Shown: positions 48,796 through 56,607 of the stretch, in pieces
Numbering within the stretch: the first letter of the stretch is position 1
Layout of the letters: every line of letters begins with the position of its first letter
Source: Glycomyces lechevalierae
Lineage (GTDB): Bacteria; Actinomycetota; Actinomycetes; Mycobacteriales; Micromonosporaceae
Direction of reading: 5' to 3'
Assembly: GCF_027622945.1 (NCBI RefSeq)
Contig: NZ_JAPZVQ010000014.1
Span: forward strand, 1-64,000
DNA length: 64,000 nucleotides
Translations under genes and position numbers: made by a program
The notes under the pieces: model-generated
Databases searched by the model: none
The model's input: only the letters and a program-made list of their open reading frames with translations
Told to the model about the DNA's origin: nothing

Positions 48796-49806
48796 ATGGG
48801 ACGCATCGCCGGAGGCAGCGAGGTCACTCGCCGCGCCAGCGTGCTCCGATTCCTCCTCGGCGCCGCGCTCACCGCATTCGGCTCCCTGCTTCTAGGGGCC
48901 TTCGCGATGGCCGCATCCGCTTGGGCATCAGACGATTCCACACCATCGCAGGGCCTTGCCGCGATGACCGACCCCCTCTCCGCAGAGGTGTCCGACATGT
49001 CGCGCCTGGCCGCGCGACTGGTCCCGCAGAACCAGCAGGGACATCGGACTCCGGCGGCGCAGGGGGAGGTCTCGGGGCTGGTGTCGGGCCTGGAAGAGCC
49101 GGTGGGATCCCTGGTGGACGAGACGGACGGGGCTGTTCGCACTGCGTTGCAGGGCGATGCCGTGCCTGGCCTACTCGACTTGGATGACGAGTCCGTCGGA
49201 GACCGCACCGCTGAAGTAGTGGCACCGCTGGTGGGAAACCTGGTGAAGGGAACGGCCTCCATTGCGGACGGCCCGGCCCCCGCGGTGCCCGGTGTCTACG
49301 AGACTGTCGCGCCCTCGACCGATCCGGTCGACGTACTGGCGCGACTGGTGACCGATGGCCTGCGCCTCGACGACGGGACGACGCCCGGGAGCGTCCCCGT
49401 CGGTGCCGCAGGACAACCGAGCTTCACCTCGCTTGCAGCACAGCAGGTCTCCGATGAGGTGGCGGCGTCGCTCCAAGGAGCGGAAAGCGGCCGGCCGGCC
49501 GCCGCCGCCGAGTGCTCCGCCGAACACGAGCGGAGGGCGGACCGATCCACCGTCGAGGACGTGCGCGGCGTGCCGCGCACCTGGGCCAGACCGTGGCTGT
49601 ACGACGGCCCCGGACTGCCTGACCTGAAGATCATCCCCGGTGGGGCCTCAGGCTCGACCGTTGGTATCAGCGTCGACAGCGGCCACACCGCTGTCTGCGT
49701 CTCCCCGTCCGCCGCGGGGGAAGAGGTGTCACTCTCCCGCACGGTGATCGGGGAATTGGGGCGGCCGTTGGACCGCGCCGCCGAGCTGTCCGTCGCCCCA
49801 GACTAG
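48796..49806 (+). CDS. Secreted protein of unknown function
   Basis: This 336-residue protein has a signal peptide: a basic N-terminus, a hydrophobic core at about 15-40, and likely cleavage after AWA near 44. The mature part is Asp/Val/Ser-rich with no recognised domain. It has repeated segments such as GLVSGLEEPVGSLVDE and APLVGNLVKG, and a C-terminal part with cysteines near AAAECSAEH and TAVCVSPSA. The ATG at 48796 has GGGGGAG five bases upstream. It precedes the WQICG repeat genes by 205 bp and is divergent from glnII. It may belong to the same secreted-protein cluster. Confidence 0.7.
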   Translation: MGRIAGGSEVTRRASVLRFLLGAALTAFGSLLLGAFAMAASAWASDDSTPSQGLAAMTDPLSAEVSDMSRLAARLVPQNQQGHRTPAAQGEVSGLVSGLEEPVGSLVDETDGAVRTALQGDAVPGLLDLDDESVGDRTAEVVAPLVGNLVKGTASIADGPAPAVPGVYETVAPSTDPVDVLARLVTDGLRLDDGTTPGSVPVGAAGQPSFTSLAAQQVSDEVAASLQGAESGRPAAAAECSAEHERRADRSTVEDVRGVPRTWARPWLYDGPGLPDLKIIPGGASGSTVGISVDSGHTAVCVSPSAAGEEVSLSRTVIGELGRPLDRAAELSVAPD

Positions 49807-50011
49807 GGCCTCCGCGCGTCGGTGCGCGGGGAACTTGAAGTCCGCCTTCAAACTCTCCCTCCGGTTGCAGTGCATGGGGTCTCGATCCCACACCCTCCGG
49901 CGCTCCGACGCGCGGAAGCCAGTCGCACCACCCGCCTCCGAACGGGGCGGGAAAGACGATCCAAGTCGCCCGGGACCTCCGGGCGCACAACCCAGAAGGA
50001 AATCGCAACTC

Positions 50012-50386
50012 ATGCGCAAGGTTCTCACTGTCGCCGCCGTCGCCGCCGGCGCTGCCGCTCTCTCCGCCGCCCCCGCCCTGGCGGGCAACAACTCCGGTGT
50101 CGACGCCGGGCCGGTCAGCCTGGTGAACATCGACGCCTCGAGCGCCGCCCACTGGCAGATCTGCGGCCAGAACGTGCTCGCCCAGTCCTTCGCCCAGGAC
50201 TGCGACAACCGCGACCACATCGGCGAGGGCCCGCAGTCCGGCGTCAACGCCGGCGAGGTCTCGCTCGCGAACCTGGACGCCGCGTCCGCCGCCCACTGGC
50301 AGATCTGCGGCCAGAACGTCGGCGTCTCGCCGTCGCTCGACCAGATGTGCAAGAACTACGACCACATGCCGGCTTCCGCCGAGTAG
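50012..50386 (+). CDS. Small secreted two-repeat protein (WQICG family, copy 1)
   Basis: This 124-residue protein has a signal peptide (MRKVLTVAAVAAGAAALSAA, cleavage after ALA at about 24). The mature part is two 48-residue repeats, each starting SGV(D/N)AG and containing SSAAHWQICGQNV or a close variant. The first unit has Cys-x12-Cys and the last has Cys-x13-Cys, then a DH(I/M) end. The cysteine pair suggests one disulphide per repeat. The conserved CGQN with a later Cys-x-Asn recalls the chaplin/rodlin style of surface protein, but no family was recognised. It is the first of four tandem paralogues. Confidence 0.8.
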   Translation: MRKVLTVAAVAAGAAALSAAPALAGNNSGVDAGPVSLVNIDASSAAHWQICGQNVLAQSFAQDCDNRDHIGEGPQSGVNAGEVSLANLDAASAAHWQICGQNVGVSPSLDQMCKNYDHMPASAE

Positions 50387-50469
50387 CCACTGCGGTCGTC
50401 AAGACCCCGTCGGCCGGTCGTTTGGTCGGCCCGACGGTTCCAGAAAGTACTTCGAAACGGGGGAAATTC

Positions 50470-50847
50470 ATGCGCAAGTCCACCTACGTCCTCGCCGCCG
50501 CCGCCGGCATCGCCGCGATCGGTGCCGCCGCTTCGCCGGCGCTGGCCGAGAACTCGGGCGTGACTGCCGGTCCGGTCAGCCTCGTGAACGTCGACGCCTC
50601 GAGCGCCGCGCACTGGCAGATCTGCGGCCAGAACGTGCTGACCCAGTCGTTCGGCCAGGTCTGCGACAACCGCGACCACATCGGCGAGGGGCCGCAGTCG
50701 GGCGTCACCGCCGGTGACACGTCCCTGGGCAACCTGGACATCTCGGACGCCGCCCACTGGCAGATCTGCGGCCAGAACGTCGGCGTCGCGCCGTCGCTCG
50801 ACCAGCAGTGCCTGAACTACGACCACATGCCCAACACGGCGCAGTAG
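50470..50847 (+). CDS. Small secreted two-repeat protein (WQICG family, copy 2)
   Basis: This 125-residue protein has a signal peptide (cleavage after ALA at about 26) and two repeats (29-76 and 77-125). It is nearly identical in layout to copy 1, with AAHWQICGQNV in both units, CDNRDHIGEGPQ between them and an LNYDHM end. The frame extends far upstream, but the ATG at 50470 gives the shared MRKxxxxxAA signal-peptide start and follows GGGGGAAATTC. Very close similarity to copy 1 at the DNA level points to recent tandem duplication. Confidence 0.8.
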   Translation: MRKSTYVLAAAAGIAAIGAAASPALAENSGVTAGPVSLVNVDASSAAHWQICGQNVLTQSFGQVCDNRDHIGEGPQSGVTAGDTSLGNLDISDAAHWQICGQNVGVAPSLDQQCLNYDHMPNTAQ

Positions 50848-50908
50848 GTCGGTCTTCGGGGCGGGCCCGCCGGGCCCGCCCCTCCCAACTCGAAAGGAAA
50901 CACACTCG

Positions 50909-51463
50909 ATGCGCAAGACCATCGCAGCCGCGGCCTTCGCCGCCGCCGGTGTCGCCGTCCTCGGTGCGGCCGCTCCCGCCATGGCGCAGAGCTCGGGCGT
51001 CAACGCCGGGGCGGTCAGCCTCGTCAACATCGACGCTTCGGACGCGGCCCACTGGCAGATCTGCGGTCAGAACATCCTGACCCAGTCGTACGACCAGAAC
51101 TGCGACAACACCGACCACATGGGCGACGGCTCGAGCTCCGGCGTGAACGCGGGCGACGTCTCCGGCGTGAACGTGGACGCCTCGGACGCGGCGCACTGGC
51201 AGATCTGCGGCCAGAACGTGCTGACCCAGTCGTACTTCCAGGACTGCGACAACCGCGACCACATCGGCGACGGTGCGGACTCCGGTGTGCAGGCGGGCGA
51301 CGTGACGCTCGGCAACCTCGACGCTTCGGACGCGGCCCACTGGCAGATCTGCGGCCAGAACGTCGGCGTCTCGCCGTCGCTCGGCCAGCAGTGCCTGAAC
51401 GCCGACCACATCCACGACGACGGCGACATGCCCGACAAGGGCGACGACCAGGGCGACTACTAA
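50909..51463 (+). CDS. Small secreted three-repeat protein (WQICG family, copy 3)
   Basis: This 184-residue protein has a signal peptide (cleavage after AMA at about 26) and three repeats at 29-76, 77-124 and 125-184. Each carries SDAAHWQICGQN(V/I). The first two have Cys-x12-Cys and the third Cys-x13-Cys. The C-terminus adds an Asp/Gly-rich tail. Compared with copies 1 and 2 it has one extra middle unit, so the repeat number varies within the cluster. GAAAGGAAAC precedes the ATG. Confidence 0.8.
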   Translation: MRKTIAAAAFAAAGVAVLGAAAPAMAQSSGVNAGAVSLVNIDASDAAHWQICGQNILTQSYDQNCDNTDHMGDGSSSGVNAGDVSGVNVDASDAAHWQICGQNVLTQSYFQDCDNRDHIGDGADSGVQAGDVTLGNLDASDAAHWQICGQNVGVSPSLGQQCLNADHIHDDGDMPDKGDDQGDY

Positions 51464-51502: not shown

Positions 51503-52012
51503 ATGAAGATGCGAAACACCACCATGGTCGCGGCCTCGGCCGTAGCCGCCGCCGCTGCGGCGGCGATCTCGGGCGGAGCCGCCTCGGCGTCCACGCCCGA
51601 CTGGCTGACCGTCGCCTCCGTGGACTCTGAGCACGAGACGATGCTGCCCGCGGTGTGCGAGACCGGCGAGACCGGCGCGCTCACCGACACCGCGTGCGAG
51701 AGTCTGCTCGGCAGCGACACCGAGGGCGAGGCCGAGACGCTCGGCCAGGAGGTGCCGGAGTCCCCTGGGGGCTACGGCATGCCGTCCCTCGCGAACGTCG
51801 ATCTGCGGGACTTCGCCAAGTGGCAGGTCTGCGGCATCGCCGTGGCGAGCCCGGCGGCACCGGCCGAGTGCGACAACTCGATCCCGGGCCCGAAGGAGCC
51901 GGTGGGACCCGGAAGCGGGATCTCCCTGGTGAACGCGGAGACCGCCGGAGCGTTCGATTGGTCCGTCTGCGGCATCGCCGTGGGGCAGACCGGTGAGGCG
52001 ACCGACTGCTGA
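51503..52012 (+). CDS. Divergent member of the WQICG secreted family (copy 4)
   Basis: This 169-residue protein has an Ala-rich signal peptide (about 1-30). The middle is Glu/Thr-rich with two cysteines. Two degenerate repeats follow: SLANVDLRDFAKWQVCGIAV...CDN and SLVNAETAGAFDWSVCGIAV...C. Both keep W-x-x/V-C-G and Cys-x12-Cys, but other positions have drifted. The final cysteine is the last residue. It lies 40 bp after copy 3, in the same orientation, and is followed by a strong terminator, so it probably belongs to the same operon and function. Confidence 0.75.
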   Translation: MKMRNTTMVAASAVAAAAAAAISGGAASASTPDWLTVASVDSEHETMLPAVCETGETGALTDTACESLLGSDTEGEAETLGQEVPESPGGYGMPSLANVDLRDFAKWQVCGIAVASPAAPAECDNSIPGPKEPVGPGSGISLVNAETAGAFDWSVCGIAVGQTGEATDC

Positions 52013-52034: not shown

Positions 52035-52064
52035 AGCGGCCGGAGCCTGTTGGCTCCGGCCGCT
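52035..52064. terminator. Bidirectional terminator after the WQICG cluster
   Basis: Perfect 13-bp arms (AGCGGCCGGAGCC and its complement) with a TGTT loop, between the repeat-protein cluster (plus) and the GH95 gene (minus). Confidence 0.82.
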
Positions 52065-54525: not shown

Positions 54526-55233
54526 GTGGAACTCAAGCACTCCCTCAAGCAGGCCGGTCGCTTCGGCCTCTCCGCCGCGGCGGGCCTCGTCGGCTCGCTC
54601 GCCCTCGCCTCGGCCGCGCAGGCCGCGATCGTCACGATCCCCATCAACCCCGGCAATGTGCCCACGACCGCCGAGGACTTCCAGAACTCCTGCGACAACC
54701 TCCCTGACGGCCAGGGAGTCGGCGTCGACGGCTGGGTCTTCGTCCTCCCGGCCGCCGCGGGCGCCGAAGGCAACTTCATCTCGGTCACCGCGACCTTCGA
54801 GGACGCCGAGGGCGTCGAGCACGTCCTCAGCACCGACGGCGACGGCGGCATCGTCTCCGGCTCGGGCGACAACAAGGCGTACATCACCGCGCCGCTCGGC
54901 TGGACCCTGGTGGACGCCGAAGCCGACGTCGAGGACCCGGACGAAGGCGCCCAGTTCAACCTGACCCACACCTGCCCGGGCACCCCGGGCGAGGAGGAGT
55001 CCAGCCCGGTCGAGCAGCCGTCCTCGCCCGGCGAGGAGACCACGTCCCCGGGTTCGGAGACCCCCGGTGAGAGCGGCACCCCCGGCGAGGAGTCGACCTC
55101 CCCGGCCGGCTCGTCCCTGCCCACCACCGGCGCCCCGCTGACGATCGCCCTCGTCTCGGCCGCCGCGCTCGCCGCCGCCGGCGCCGCGGCGTTCATGTAC
55201 CTGCGCCGCCGCCGCGAGGCCCAGGACTGGTAG
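54526..55233 (+). CDS. LPxTG-anchored cell-wall protein
   Basis: This 235-residue protein starts at a GTG. It has a signal peptide (about 1-33, cleavage after QAA), a folded domain at about 35-155 (IPINPGNVPTTAEDF, WVFVLPAAAGAEGNFISV, SGSGDNKAYITAP), and a Pro/Glu/Ser/Thr-rich wall-spanning stretch. The sorting signal is LPTTG at 198-202, a hydrophobic helix and RRRRE. Sortase would link it to peptidoglycan. The folded domain is shared with the next gene and is not recognised. Downstream is a strong hairpin. Confidence 0.85.
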   Translation: MELKHSLKQAGRFGLSAAAGLVGSLALASAAQAAIVTIPINPGNVPTTAEDFQNSCDNLPDGQGVGVDGWVFVLPAAAGAEGNFISVTATFEDAEGVEHVLSTDGDGGIVSGSGDNKAYITAPLGWTLVDAEADVEDPDEGAQFNLTHTCPGTPGEEESSPVEQPSSPGEETTSPGSETPGESGTPGEESTSPAGSSLPTTGAPLTIALVSAAALAAAGAAAFMYLRRRREAQDW

Positions 55234-55518: not shown

Positions 55519-56607
55519 GTGAAACTCACACGCCGCCACAAGACCCTCGCCGCCGCGGCCGGCGCGGGTCTGGCGGGATCCATCGCGCTCGCGTTCGCCC
55601 TTCCCGCCCTCGCGGCGGACTACAAGACGATCCCGATCAACCCGGGCAACGTGCCGACCACGGCGGAGCAGTTCTCGACCCACAGCTGCGACCAGATCCC
55701 GGGCGACACGGCGGACTGGCTCGACGGCTGGGTGTTCGTGCTGCCGTCTTCGGTTCCGGCCGAAGGCAACTTCAAGTACATCGAAGCGGTCTTCACCGAC
55801 GAGGACGGCAACGTCCTGCGCTACAACACCGACGACGACGGCGGGATCGTCAGCGGCAGCGGCGACAACAAGGCGTACATCGTGACGCCCGCTGGGCTGA
55901 CCCTCATCGACGCCGACGCCCAGGTGGACCTCGACGAGGTGAAGGACAAGTACAAGTTCAACCTGACCCACGCCTGCCCGGCGACCGAGGACGAACCGGG
56001 GGAGGAGACGACGACCCCGGCCGAGGAGCCTTCCAGCCCTGGGGAGGAGACCACCACCCCGGCTGAGGAACCGTCCAGTCCTGGTGAGGAGACGACGACT
56101 CCGGCTGAGGAGCCGTCGAGTCCCGGCGAAGAGACCACCACCCCGGTCGAGGAGCCTTCCAGCCCTGGGGAAGAGACCACGACTCCCGTCGAGGAGCCGT
56201 CCAGTCCGGGGCAGGAGACCACCACCCCGGCGGAGGAGCCGTCGAGCCCCGGCGAGGAGACCACCACCCCGGTCGAAGAACCTTCCAGCCCGGTCGAGGA
56301 GACCACGTCGCCTGCCGAAGAGCCGTCGAGCCCCGATGAGGAGACCACCTCCCCGGCCGAGGAGCCCTCCAGCCCTGACGAGGAGACCACCACTCCGGGC
56401 GAGGCGACCACCAGCCCCGGCGAGCAGTCCTCCAGCCCGGCAGCGTCGACCTCGACGCCGCACCAGCCCTCGACCACGCCGGTAGCCTCGCTGCCGACCA
56501 CGGGCTCCCCGCTCATCTGGGTCCTCGCCGCGGCCGGCGCGCTCCTGGTGGTCGGCGCCGTGATCCTCGTCTTCATGAGCCGTCGCAGCAGCACTGAAGA
56601 GGCGTAG
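55519..56607 (+). CDS. LPxTG-anchored cell-wall protein with 14-residue stalk repeats
   Basis: This 362-residue paralogue of the preceding gene has a signal peptide (about 1-33, cleavage after LAA). The folded domain at about 35-155 (IPINPGNVPTTAEQF, WVFVLPSSVPAEGNF, SGSGDNKAYIVTP) carries a short Cys pair. The stalk has nine near-perfect TTTP(A/V)EEPSSPGEE repeats plus diverged units. The sorting signal is LPTTG at 325-329 with a hydrophobic helix and RRSS end. The stalk is far longer than in the first paralogue. The repeats would place the same head domain farther from the wall. Confidence 0.87.
   Translation: MKLTRRHKTLAAAAGAGLAGSIALAFALPALAADYKTIPINPGNVPTTAEQFSTHSCDQIPGDTADWLDGWVFVLPSSVPAEGNFKYIEAVFTDEDGNVLRYNTDDDGGIVSGSGDNKAYIVTPAGLTLIDADAQVDLDEVKDKYKFNLTHACPATEDEPGEETTTPAEEPSSPGEETTTPAEEPSSPGEETTTPAEEPSSPGEETTTPVEEPSSPGEETTTPVEEPSSPGQETTTPAEEPSSPGEETTTPVEEPSSPVEETTSPAEEPSSPDEETTSPAEEPSSPDEETTTPGEATTSPGEQSSSPAASTSTPHQPSTTPVASLPTTGSPLIWVLAAAGALLVVGAVILVFMSRRSSTEEA
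56008..56385 (+). repeat. Nine tandem 42-bp repeats in the LPxTG stalk
   Basis: Nine in-frame 42-bp units (14 codons each, consensus TTTPAEEPSSPGEE) run without a break. The first six differ mainly at synonymous positions and at Ala/Val; the last three have Ser or Asp substitutions. Copy number is likely to vary between strains. Confidence 0.85.

Follow-up and report, generated by a model that had tools for sequence, protein, structure and literature searches.

A conserved Glycomyces cluster of putatively exported Trp-Cys repeat proteins, with a structured leader and a wider WQ(V/I)CGS superfamily

Little is known of how hyphae and spores are covered in actinomycetes outside Streptomyces. Chaplins assemble as amyloid at the air-water interface under the control of the sigma factor BldN, and Glycomyces forms aerial mycelium and spores. 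Both structures are also recorded for Natronoglycomyces (Glycomycetaceae) in part of its description (PMC8289206). An excerpt of a 2026 paper gives GN motifs 12-13 residues apart as a chaplin feature and describes the Actinoplanes missouriensis surface proteins CwpA and CwpB, which according to its authors are without chaplin domains, act in morphogenesis, and are modelled with extensive disorder and some clusters of beta-sheets (PMC13251363). For ChpH without its Cys residues, a section of another report describes severely harmed aerial growth, the Cys being dispensable for fibrils in vitro (PMC3079736), and a passage of a review states that obvious rodlins occur only in streptomycetes, with very low-scoring matches in Stackebrandtia and Thermomonospora (PMC4255298). 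The cluster described here is compact and conserved, has a clear repeat code, and belongs to organisms with a true chaplin on another contig, which would allow a direct test of whether a second protein family serves at the surface. A conserved leader gives an added handle on the control of the cluster. Its repeat proteins are a real family that has no model, encoded in a conserved cluster behind a structured leader and belonging to a wider superfamily; the WQ(V/I)CGS superfamily and the leader are new here.

The window, by which we mean the whole 64,000-nucleotide stretch of the Glycomyces lechevalierae contig NZ_JAPZVQ010000014.1 that was analysed, was the subject of an earlier note that reported three tandem genes and a divergent fourth, and this observation is confirmed as real, with all four genes on the + strand. 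Gene 1 (50012..50386, 124 aa) reads as a repeat protein of two units, with Trp at residues 48 and 96, Cys at 51/64 and 99/113, and no family match; gene 2 (50470..50847, 125 aa) also has two units, and gene 3 (50909..51463, 184 aa) has three, followed by an acidic tail, PDKGDDQGDY, with orthologues of 2, 3 or 4 units. These unit numbers are those of the earlier note, and its unit length and Cys spacing hold as well: the Trp-to-Trp period is exactly 48 residues in genes 1-3 (46 in gene 4), and the paired Cys are separated by 12 residues in the four non-last units of genes 1-3 and by 13 in the three last ones. Its consensus motifs needed amendment, in that the core AAHWQICGQNV is present in all seven units of genes 1-3 with either V or I at the last position, and CDNRDH(I/M) applies to non-last units only, in the form CDN(R/T)DH(I/M), the last units reading C(K/L)N(Y/A)DH(M/I). 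All four proteins begin, by eye, with a signal-peptide-like stretch, which in genes 1-3 has the form MRK-hydrophobic-AxA and predicts export. Aligned over 44 units, the SLxNxD stretch keeps its Asn and Asp in 90% or more, and there is no variation in W, C, G or the second C, partly by construction, as the units were chosen by the pattern W-x-(V/I)-C-G...C. The Trp had been called invariant, which fails for one Glycomyces unit (L016, LQVCGQN) and for relatives in genomes G881 and G033 that have none.

Gene 4 (51503..52012, + strand, 169 aa) is the divergent member, in which a Trp-less unit (Cys 52/65) is followed by WQVCG and WSVCG units, as identified by reading of the open frame and by matches to a unit profile that had been built partly from some fourth-gene units. 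It contains three Cys-x12-Cys pairs, the first of them in the Trp-less unit, and six Cys in three pairs at spacings of 11-12 were present in 20 of the 21 distinct fourth-gene proteins read, the exception being a shorter reading in L028 with four. On the 3' side of gene 4 lies a G+C-rich hairpin (52036..52063, + strand), the probable end of the cluster; stems of at least 10 pairs were found within 120 bases after gene 4 in 19/21 distinct fourth-gene readings, and the hairpin is missing from the list produced by a terminator scan that demands a T run. G+C-rich inverted repeats also occupy the gaps between genes 1 and 2 (50387-50469) and genes 2 and 3 (50848-50908), and both are visible by eye in most of the other species printed. 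Codon use in the cluster is uniform, with all 109 two-fold pyrimidine codons ending in C; as a sign of strong expression this was rejected, the same bias being found in the window's glutamine synthetase (71/71), permease (74/74) and ABC ATPase (51/51) genes.

The earlier note knew of no described family with this motif, and genes 1-4 indeed have no Pfam or NCBIfam match beyond chance level, a level that includes the one inhibitor-like match of gene 4 at E 0.06. A sequence search of the PDB with the repeat proteins returned none at E 1. Within a library of open-access papers, WQICG or WQVCG was found in no paper, no paper joined "chaplin-like" with Micromonosporaceae, and those naming both Glycomyces and chaplin were unrelated, judging by their listing.

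The gene 3 query matched 24 of 61 genomes at E 0.01, or 23 after removal of G031, where the match was a signal-peptide artefact in a hydrolase-like frame. Holders of the cluster by this search were 21/22 Glycomyces (20 of the 21 other genomes of the source genus), G028 and G033; Glycomyces G020, a 360-contig assembly, was without it in the same search. Nine named loci were fetched with gene 3, eight from Glycomyces and one from Phytomonospora endophytica. A profile of the 44 units, A1, matched 32 of the 354 GTDB-family genomes at E 0.01, with strong matches in 21 Glycomyces, G028, G033 and G998, a match in G881 at E 1.4e-10, and the remaining 7 at E 2.4e-4 to 0.01; since these profile searches scored at most 17-28 candidates per genome, the distribution is a lower bound. 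G998 is in all likelihood Phytomonospora endophytica, because its proteins equal those of locus L039. Besides Glycomyces, three genera of its GTDB family hold the cluster; we take this family, which includes Phytomonospora as well, to be Micromonosporaceae in GTDB's sense, and NCBI taxonomy places Glycomyces in Glycomycetaceae. Phytomonospora is listed under Micromonosporaceae in the relevant part of a taxonomy paper (PMC6113628). With A1, nothing convincing was found outside Glycomyces in an order sample (397 genomes) or a class sample (394 genomes), and in the samples searched strong unit matches were confined to the one GTDB family. Weak single matches outside the family (L067, L086-L089) contained no secreted repeat protein on reading; some weak-match loci were read on one strand only, others on both strands with a motif filter.

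Presence of the cluster in 21/22 Glycomyces genomes, together with dN/dS below 1 in all pairs compared, takes it far beyond chance. By a simple estimate, comparing the window with five other species, dN/dS was below 1 in 19/19 gene pairs, ranging from 0.17 to 0.97, with the highest values, up to 0.97, belonging to gene 1. The earlier note had also inferred that the cluster is expanding by duplication, which the source genome does not bear out: for each of the seven units in genes 1-3 the closest DNA match lies in a different species, and by this comparison the cluster appears inherited, not freshly expanded. Across 19 genomes, taken at one locus each (G009, G019 and G020 excluded), 71 of 119 units of genes 1-3 were closer to a unit of another genome, 41 to one of the same genome, and 7 were ties, these counts being of sequences and not of events; in 65 of the 71 the match was to the same unit class. 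Recent amplification of units is clear in G021 (L014, G021:C141), where four units are present in both gene 2 and gene 3 and the amplified copies are up to 99% identical at the DNA level. All 18 Glycomyces clusters read contain three or four adjacent repeat genes, the leading genes being two, not three, in G003, G012 and G015.

The nearest proven relatives of the window family, as judged by profile comparison, are repeat proteins with WQ(V/I)CGS units from other genera of the same GTDB family. Weak matches in genus g231 proved real, being long proteins with repeated units of this kind, and proteins of this type were read at loci L097, L100, L101, L109, L170-L179 and L198, for which no family model was found. 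They resemble the window's proteins in having a signal-peptide-like start, tandem units, a WQ(V/I)CG core in most cases, and a second Cys followed by xN, but differ in their wider Cys spacing, a length of about 285-395 aa, and a different neighbourhood. In a profile comparison, A5, made from 26 WQ(V/I)CGS units, matched A1 with 94.6% probability (E 6.5e-8, score 35.6), the similarity including the WQ(V/I)CG core and the second Cys, and 100 column-shuffled versions of A5 reached a maximum score of 16.6 against A1. Because the two Cys are separated by 22-24 residues in 26/26 of the aligned WQ(V/I)CGS units as against 12-13 in the window family, the latter is, on these alignments, a distinct short-loop branch of a WQ(V/I)CGS superfamily.

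A mixed profile, A4, assembled from 21 rows of 7 genera and including L103 despite its doubtful membership, matched 45/250 genomes in 12/44 genera at E 0.001, five of which (g10, g16, g228, g237, g245) had given the profile no row. The L103 frame, from G1019, has 101 residues and just one PVCG unit. Units without Trp were found in G881 (HVPVCGVN, HLPICGVN) and in the third protein of the G033 cluster (IQVCGIN, INVCGVSV), and five such units jointly matched A1 with 98.9% in profile comparison. Two adjacent WQ(V/I)CGS genes stand beside a NUDIX gene and lepA in G875 and G861, with a ribosomal protein S20 gene beyond, the families of the neighbours being confirmed by Pfam for G875. Adjoining WQ(V/I)CGS genes in this setting lie at L214 (5214-7546) and L215 (5545-7500), where the region holds the S20 gene and a radical-SAM gene. 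Several weak matches to the superfamily were discarded: those in G888 and G953 (L098, L099) read as other proteins, those in G941 (L102) and L107 had no motif, and the two marginal matches of A5 among 246 genomes of a class sample (L201, L202) were not repeat proteins on reading.

A resemblance to chaplins had been proposed for the units, and it stands in outline (signal-peptide-like start, tandem units, one Cys pair, a CG-x-x-V core); homology is not established by profiles. Export, units with two Cys, the core and an origin in actinomycetes are shared with the chaplins of PF03777, among them Streptomyces ChpA-H and the long chaplins of Glycomyces, and two conserved Cys per domain are found in the units as in chaplins. 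The window proteins differ in being polar, not hydrophobic, the units having a mean hydropathy of -0.07 to -0.56 and the three chaplin domains compared one of +0.42 to +0.71, in having no GN after the first Cys but a Trp instead, and in the lack of any sortase signal seen; GN motifs are absent inside the window's units, which read CGQN or CGIA. We think it improbable that these are divergent chaplins, that is, units of chaplin-domain origin in which GN motifs and hydrophobicity were lost and Trp was gained, and which still form an amyloid coat. Such a descent would account for the shared VCG-x-x-V and second Cys, for the Cys-x13 spacing found in non-Streptomyces chaplins, and for the closeness of the Trp-less PVCGVN and INVCGVSV to chaplin INVCGN, and unit-chaplin scores do beat most shuffled controls: against chaplins A1 scored 16.0, where 100 shuffles had a 95% point of 12.3 and peaked at 16.1; the score of 15.8 for the Trp-less relatives lay at the 99% point, and the joined superfamily scored 16.5, a value that none of its 100 shuffles reached, the best of them scoring 13.0. 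These scores exceed shuffles because the CG core lines up, and the unit-chaplin alignment covers 9-23 columns round it. Against descent from chaplins, hhalign gave A1 a probability of 5% with Glycomyces chaplins and 9% with a mixed set of 23 chaplin domains; the figure was 12.6% when gene 4 units were taken by themselves, 3.0% for those of genes 1-3 by themselves, 7% for the Trp-less relatives, 11.5% for the joined superfamily and 0.5% in global mode; all variants, which included Streptomyces alone and non-Streptomyces alone, fell between 0.5 and 12.6%, compared with 97.2% for the control pair of Streptomyces and Glycomyces chaplins. Likewise, PF03777 reported no match to genes 1-4 (limit E 10, HMMER filters dropping most matches above E 0.1) but found a separate chaplin of 3-4 matched domains in 22/22 Glycomyces, on a different contig from the repeat cluster in all 21 with both. 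The source genome's own chaplin was found on contig C12 of G000 (355750-356391, - strand), in a 327-aa open frame with 3 PF03777 matches over the cut-off. A role as rodlin-like partner proteins that order this Glycomyces chaplin layer seems very unlikely. The rodlins RdlA and RdlB of Streptomyces are likewise small and exported, and five rodlin-like proteins read from three loci of chaplin-rich genomes (L203-L205) have two Cys and stand in side-by-side pairs in L203 and L205, with a local likeness to the units, NV-x(n)-Q-x-C-x-x-N, and a score of 15.1, slightly over the 95% point obtained from 60 shuffles (14.5); they have, unlike the window's proteins, neither repeats of 48 nor WQICG, and hhalign gave the units a probability of 2.3% against them, or 1.0% with two-unit proteins. 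For the units, descent from chaplins or from rodlins is neither established nor excluded by profile comparison. CwpA and CwpB, likened to the window proteins by description and not by sequence, differ in being sortase-anchored and hydrophobic.

Signal peptides route proteins to export, and Cys pairs outside the cell usually oxidise. We give slightly less than even chances to the view that the cluster's products are exported, form one disulphide per unit, and assemble as acidic and polar proteins of the cell surface; what speaks most strongly for the disulphides in the sequence is the even Cys count and the fixed spacing. The cluster would make a set of small exported proteins with tandem units of about 48 residues, in each of which the two Cys would pair outside the cell and close a loop of 12-13 residues, while SLVNxD-turn-HWQICGQNV may form a beta hairpin or arch, as hinted weakly by a single-sequence model. 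The units might then stack, and the co-made paralogues together with gene 4 might give hyphae or spores a strongly acidic, polar layer that supplements, without replacing, the hydrophobic chaplin found in each of the 22 Glycomyces genomes. The repeat proteins are acidic and polar (pI 4.05-4.34), and the variable unit number (2, 3, 4) supports a structural role, because structural repeats tolerate such variation better than enzymes do. Counting against the coat view are the much lower hydrophobicity of the units compared with chaplin domains, the lack, by eye, of a wall anchor in genes 1-4, the undistinguished codon use and the missing cluster in G020. Structure prediction gave no usable fold: AlphaFold2 models from a single sequence and from 39 rows were both near pLDDT 40, the first predicting paired strands at 36-42/48-61 and 84-90/96-109 with no residue above pLDDT 70, the second short strands elsewhere, at 27-31/39-41 and 75-79/88-90. 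The same genes could instead encode soluble secreted Cys-paired proteins, such as inhibitors, binding proteins or antagonistic peptides, that act in the medium and gain avidity from their repeats, which we regard as unlikely. Small, exported, Cys-paired, polar proteins with no sortase signal or other wall anchor seen by eye in genes 1-4 would suit such a function, as would moderate dN/dS, reaching its maximum in gene 1, as in interaction proteins; against it, paralogues and other species repeat the unit with little change, the genes on either side of the cluster encode a 336-aa protein that has no family and a GH95 hydrolase, with no obvious immunity or processing gene, and the sole inhibitor-like match was that of gene 4 at chance level. 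The coat reading, drawn by analogy, is our best single guess. A bolder version is, in our estimate, somewhat unlikely: mycelial actinomycetes would have a further coat system that shares no ancestry with chaplins, in which polar, disulphide-stapled Trp-Cys repeats would stack into a hydrated sheath, with a short-loop branch in Glycomyces and allies and a long-loop branch in other genera of the same family.

Gene 1 is separated from the stop codon upstream of it by about 205 bases (49807..50011, + strand), which are alignable in 18 Glycomyces and end near the ribosome-binding site AGAAGGAAA; the unlike upstream region of G033 (L021) was excluded from the alignment. The consensus fold of this conserved 5' leader comprises smaller hairpins and a 14-pair long-range stem, with arms at 49812..49825 and 49902..49915 (+ strand), in which 98% of cells pair and 3 of the 14 pairs show changes on both sides. 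Over 34 pairs, 96.4% of cells pair, falling to 33-49% when the partner is slid by 1-3 columns, and both-side changes occur in 10/34 pairs as against 3.7 in shuffles (0/500 as high), figures biased in favour of the structure, which was derived from the same alignment; "further pair types" were not above shuffles (304/500). The leader may serve as an RNA control element; an alternative, since each arm of the long stem is nearly palindromic, is that it holds two operator palindromes, paired sites for protein binding on the DNA. A DNA search matched the leader in 19/22 Glycomyces, always before the cluster, with only the last 40 bases matched in G001 and G003; second matches in G002, G003, G004, G013 and G014 were short or split pieces. 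Rfam gave sub-threshold matches only, and a scan for sigma-70-type promoters, which does not cover BldN, found none.

Four named loci of Glycomyces (L037, L040, L042, L044) have the same gene order as the window, running from a glutamine synthetase gene (reverse) through the 336-aa protein, the repeat genes and a GH95 hydrolase (reverse) to LPxTG-type proteins and a permease, except that LPxTG-type proteins were not seen in L040 and the permease was scored only where a locus reached far enough. The glutamine synthetase, GH95 and permease families were confirmed in the window. The 336-aa protein (48796..49806, + strand) has an N-terminal hydrophobic stretch, matches no Pfam family and ends in AAELSVAPD; by blastp it precedes the cluster in all four Glycomyces loci searched, and no relative was found beside the G028 cluster, which is preceded by a similarly composed protein whose last residues are APD. 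Any link of the 336-aa protein to the repeat proteins is putative. Genes for LPxTG-type proteins lie 2.5-4.6 kb downstream of the cluster and are weak evidence of a connection, because most of the neighbourhood is common to Glycomyces.

Some further features of these loci were seen in passing. The two LPxTG-type wall-anchored proteins of the window (54526-55233 and 55519-56607) have TIPINPGNVPTTAE in common; the first passes the Pfam Gram_pos_anchor cut-off and the second, which does not, has a long repeat stalk of the EEPSSPGEETTTPA type. The G+C content of G033 is 60% over 13 kb. About 6 kb downstream of the cluster in the window, an ABC-transporter-like pair was recognised by eye.
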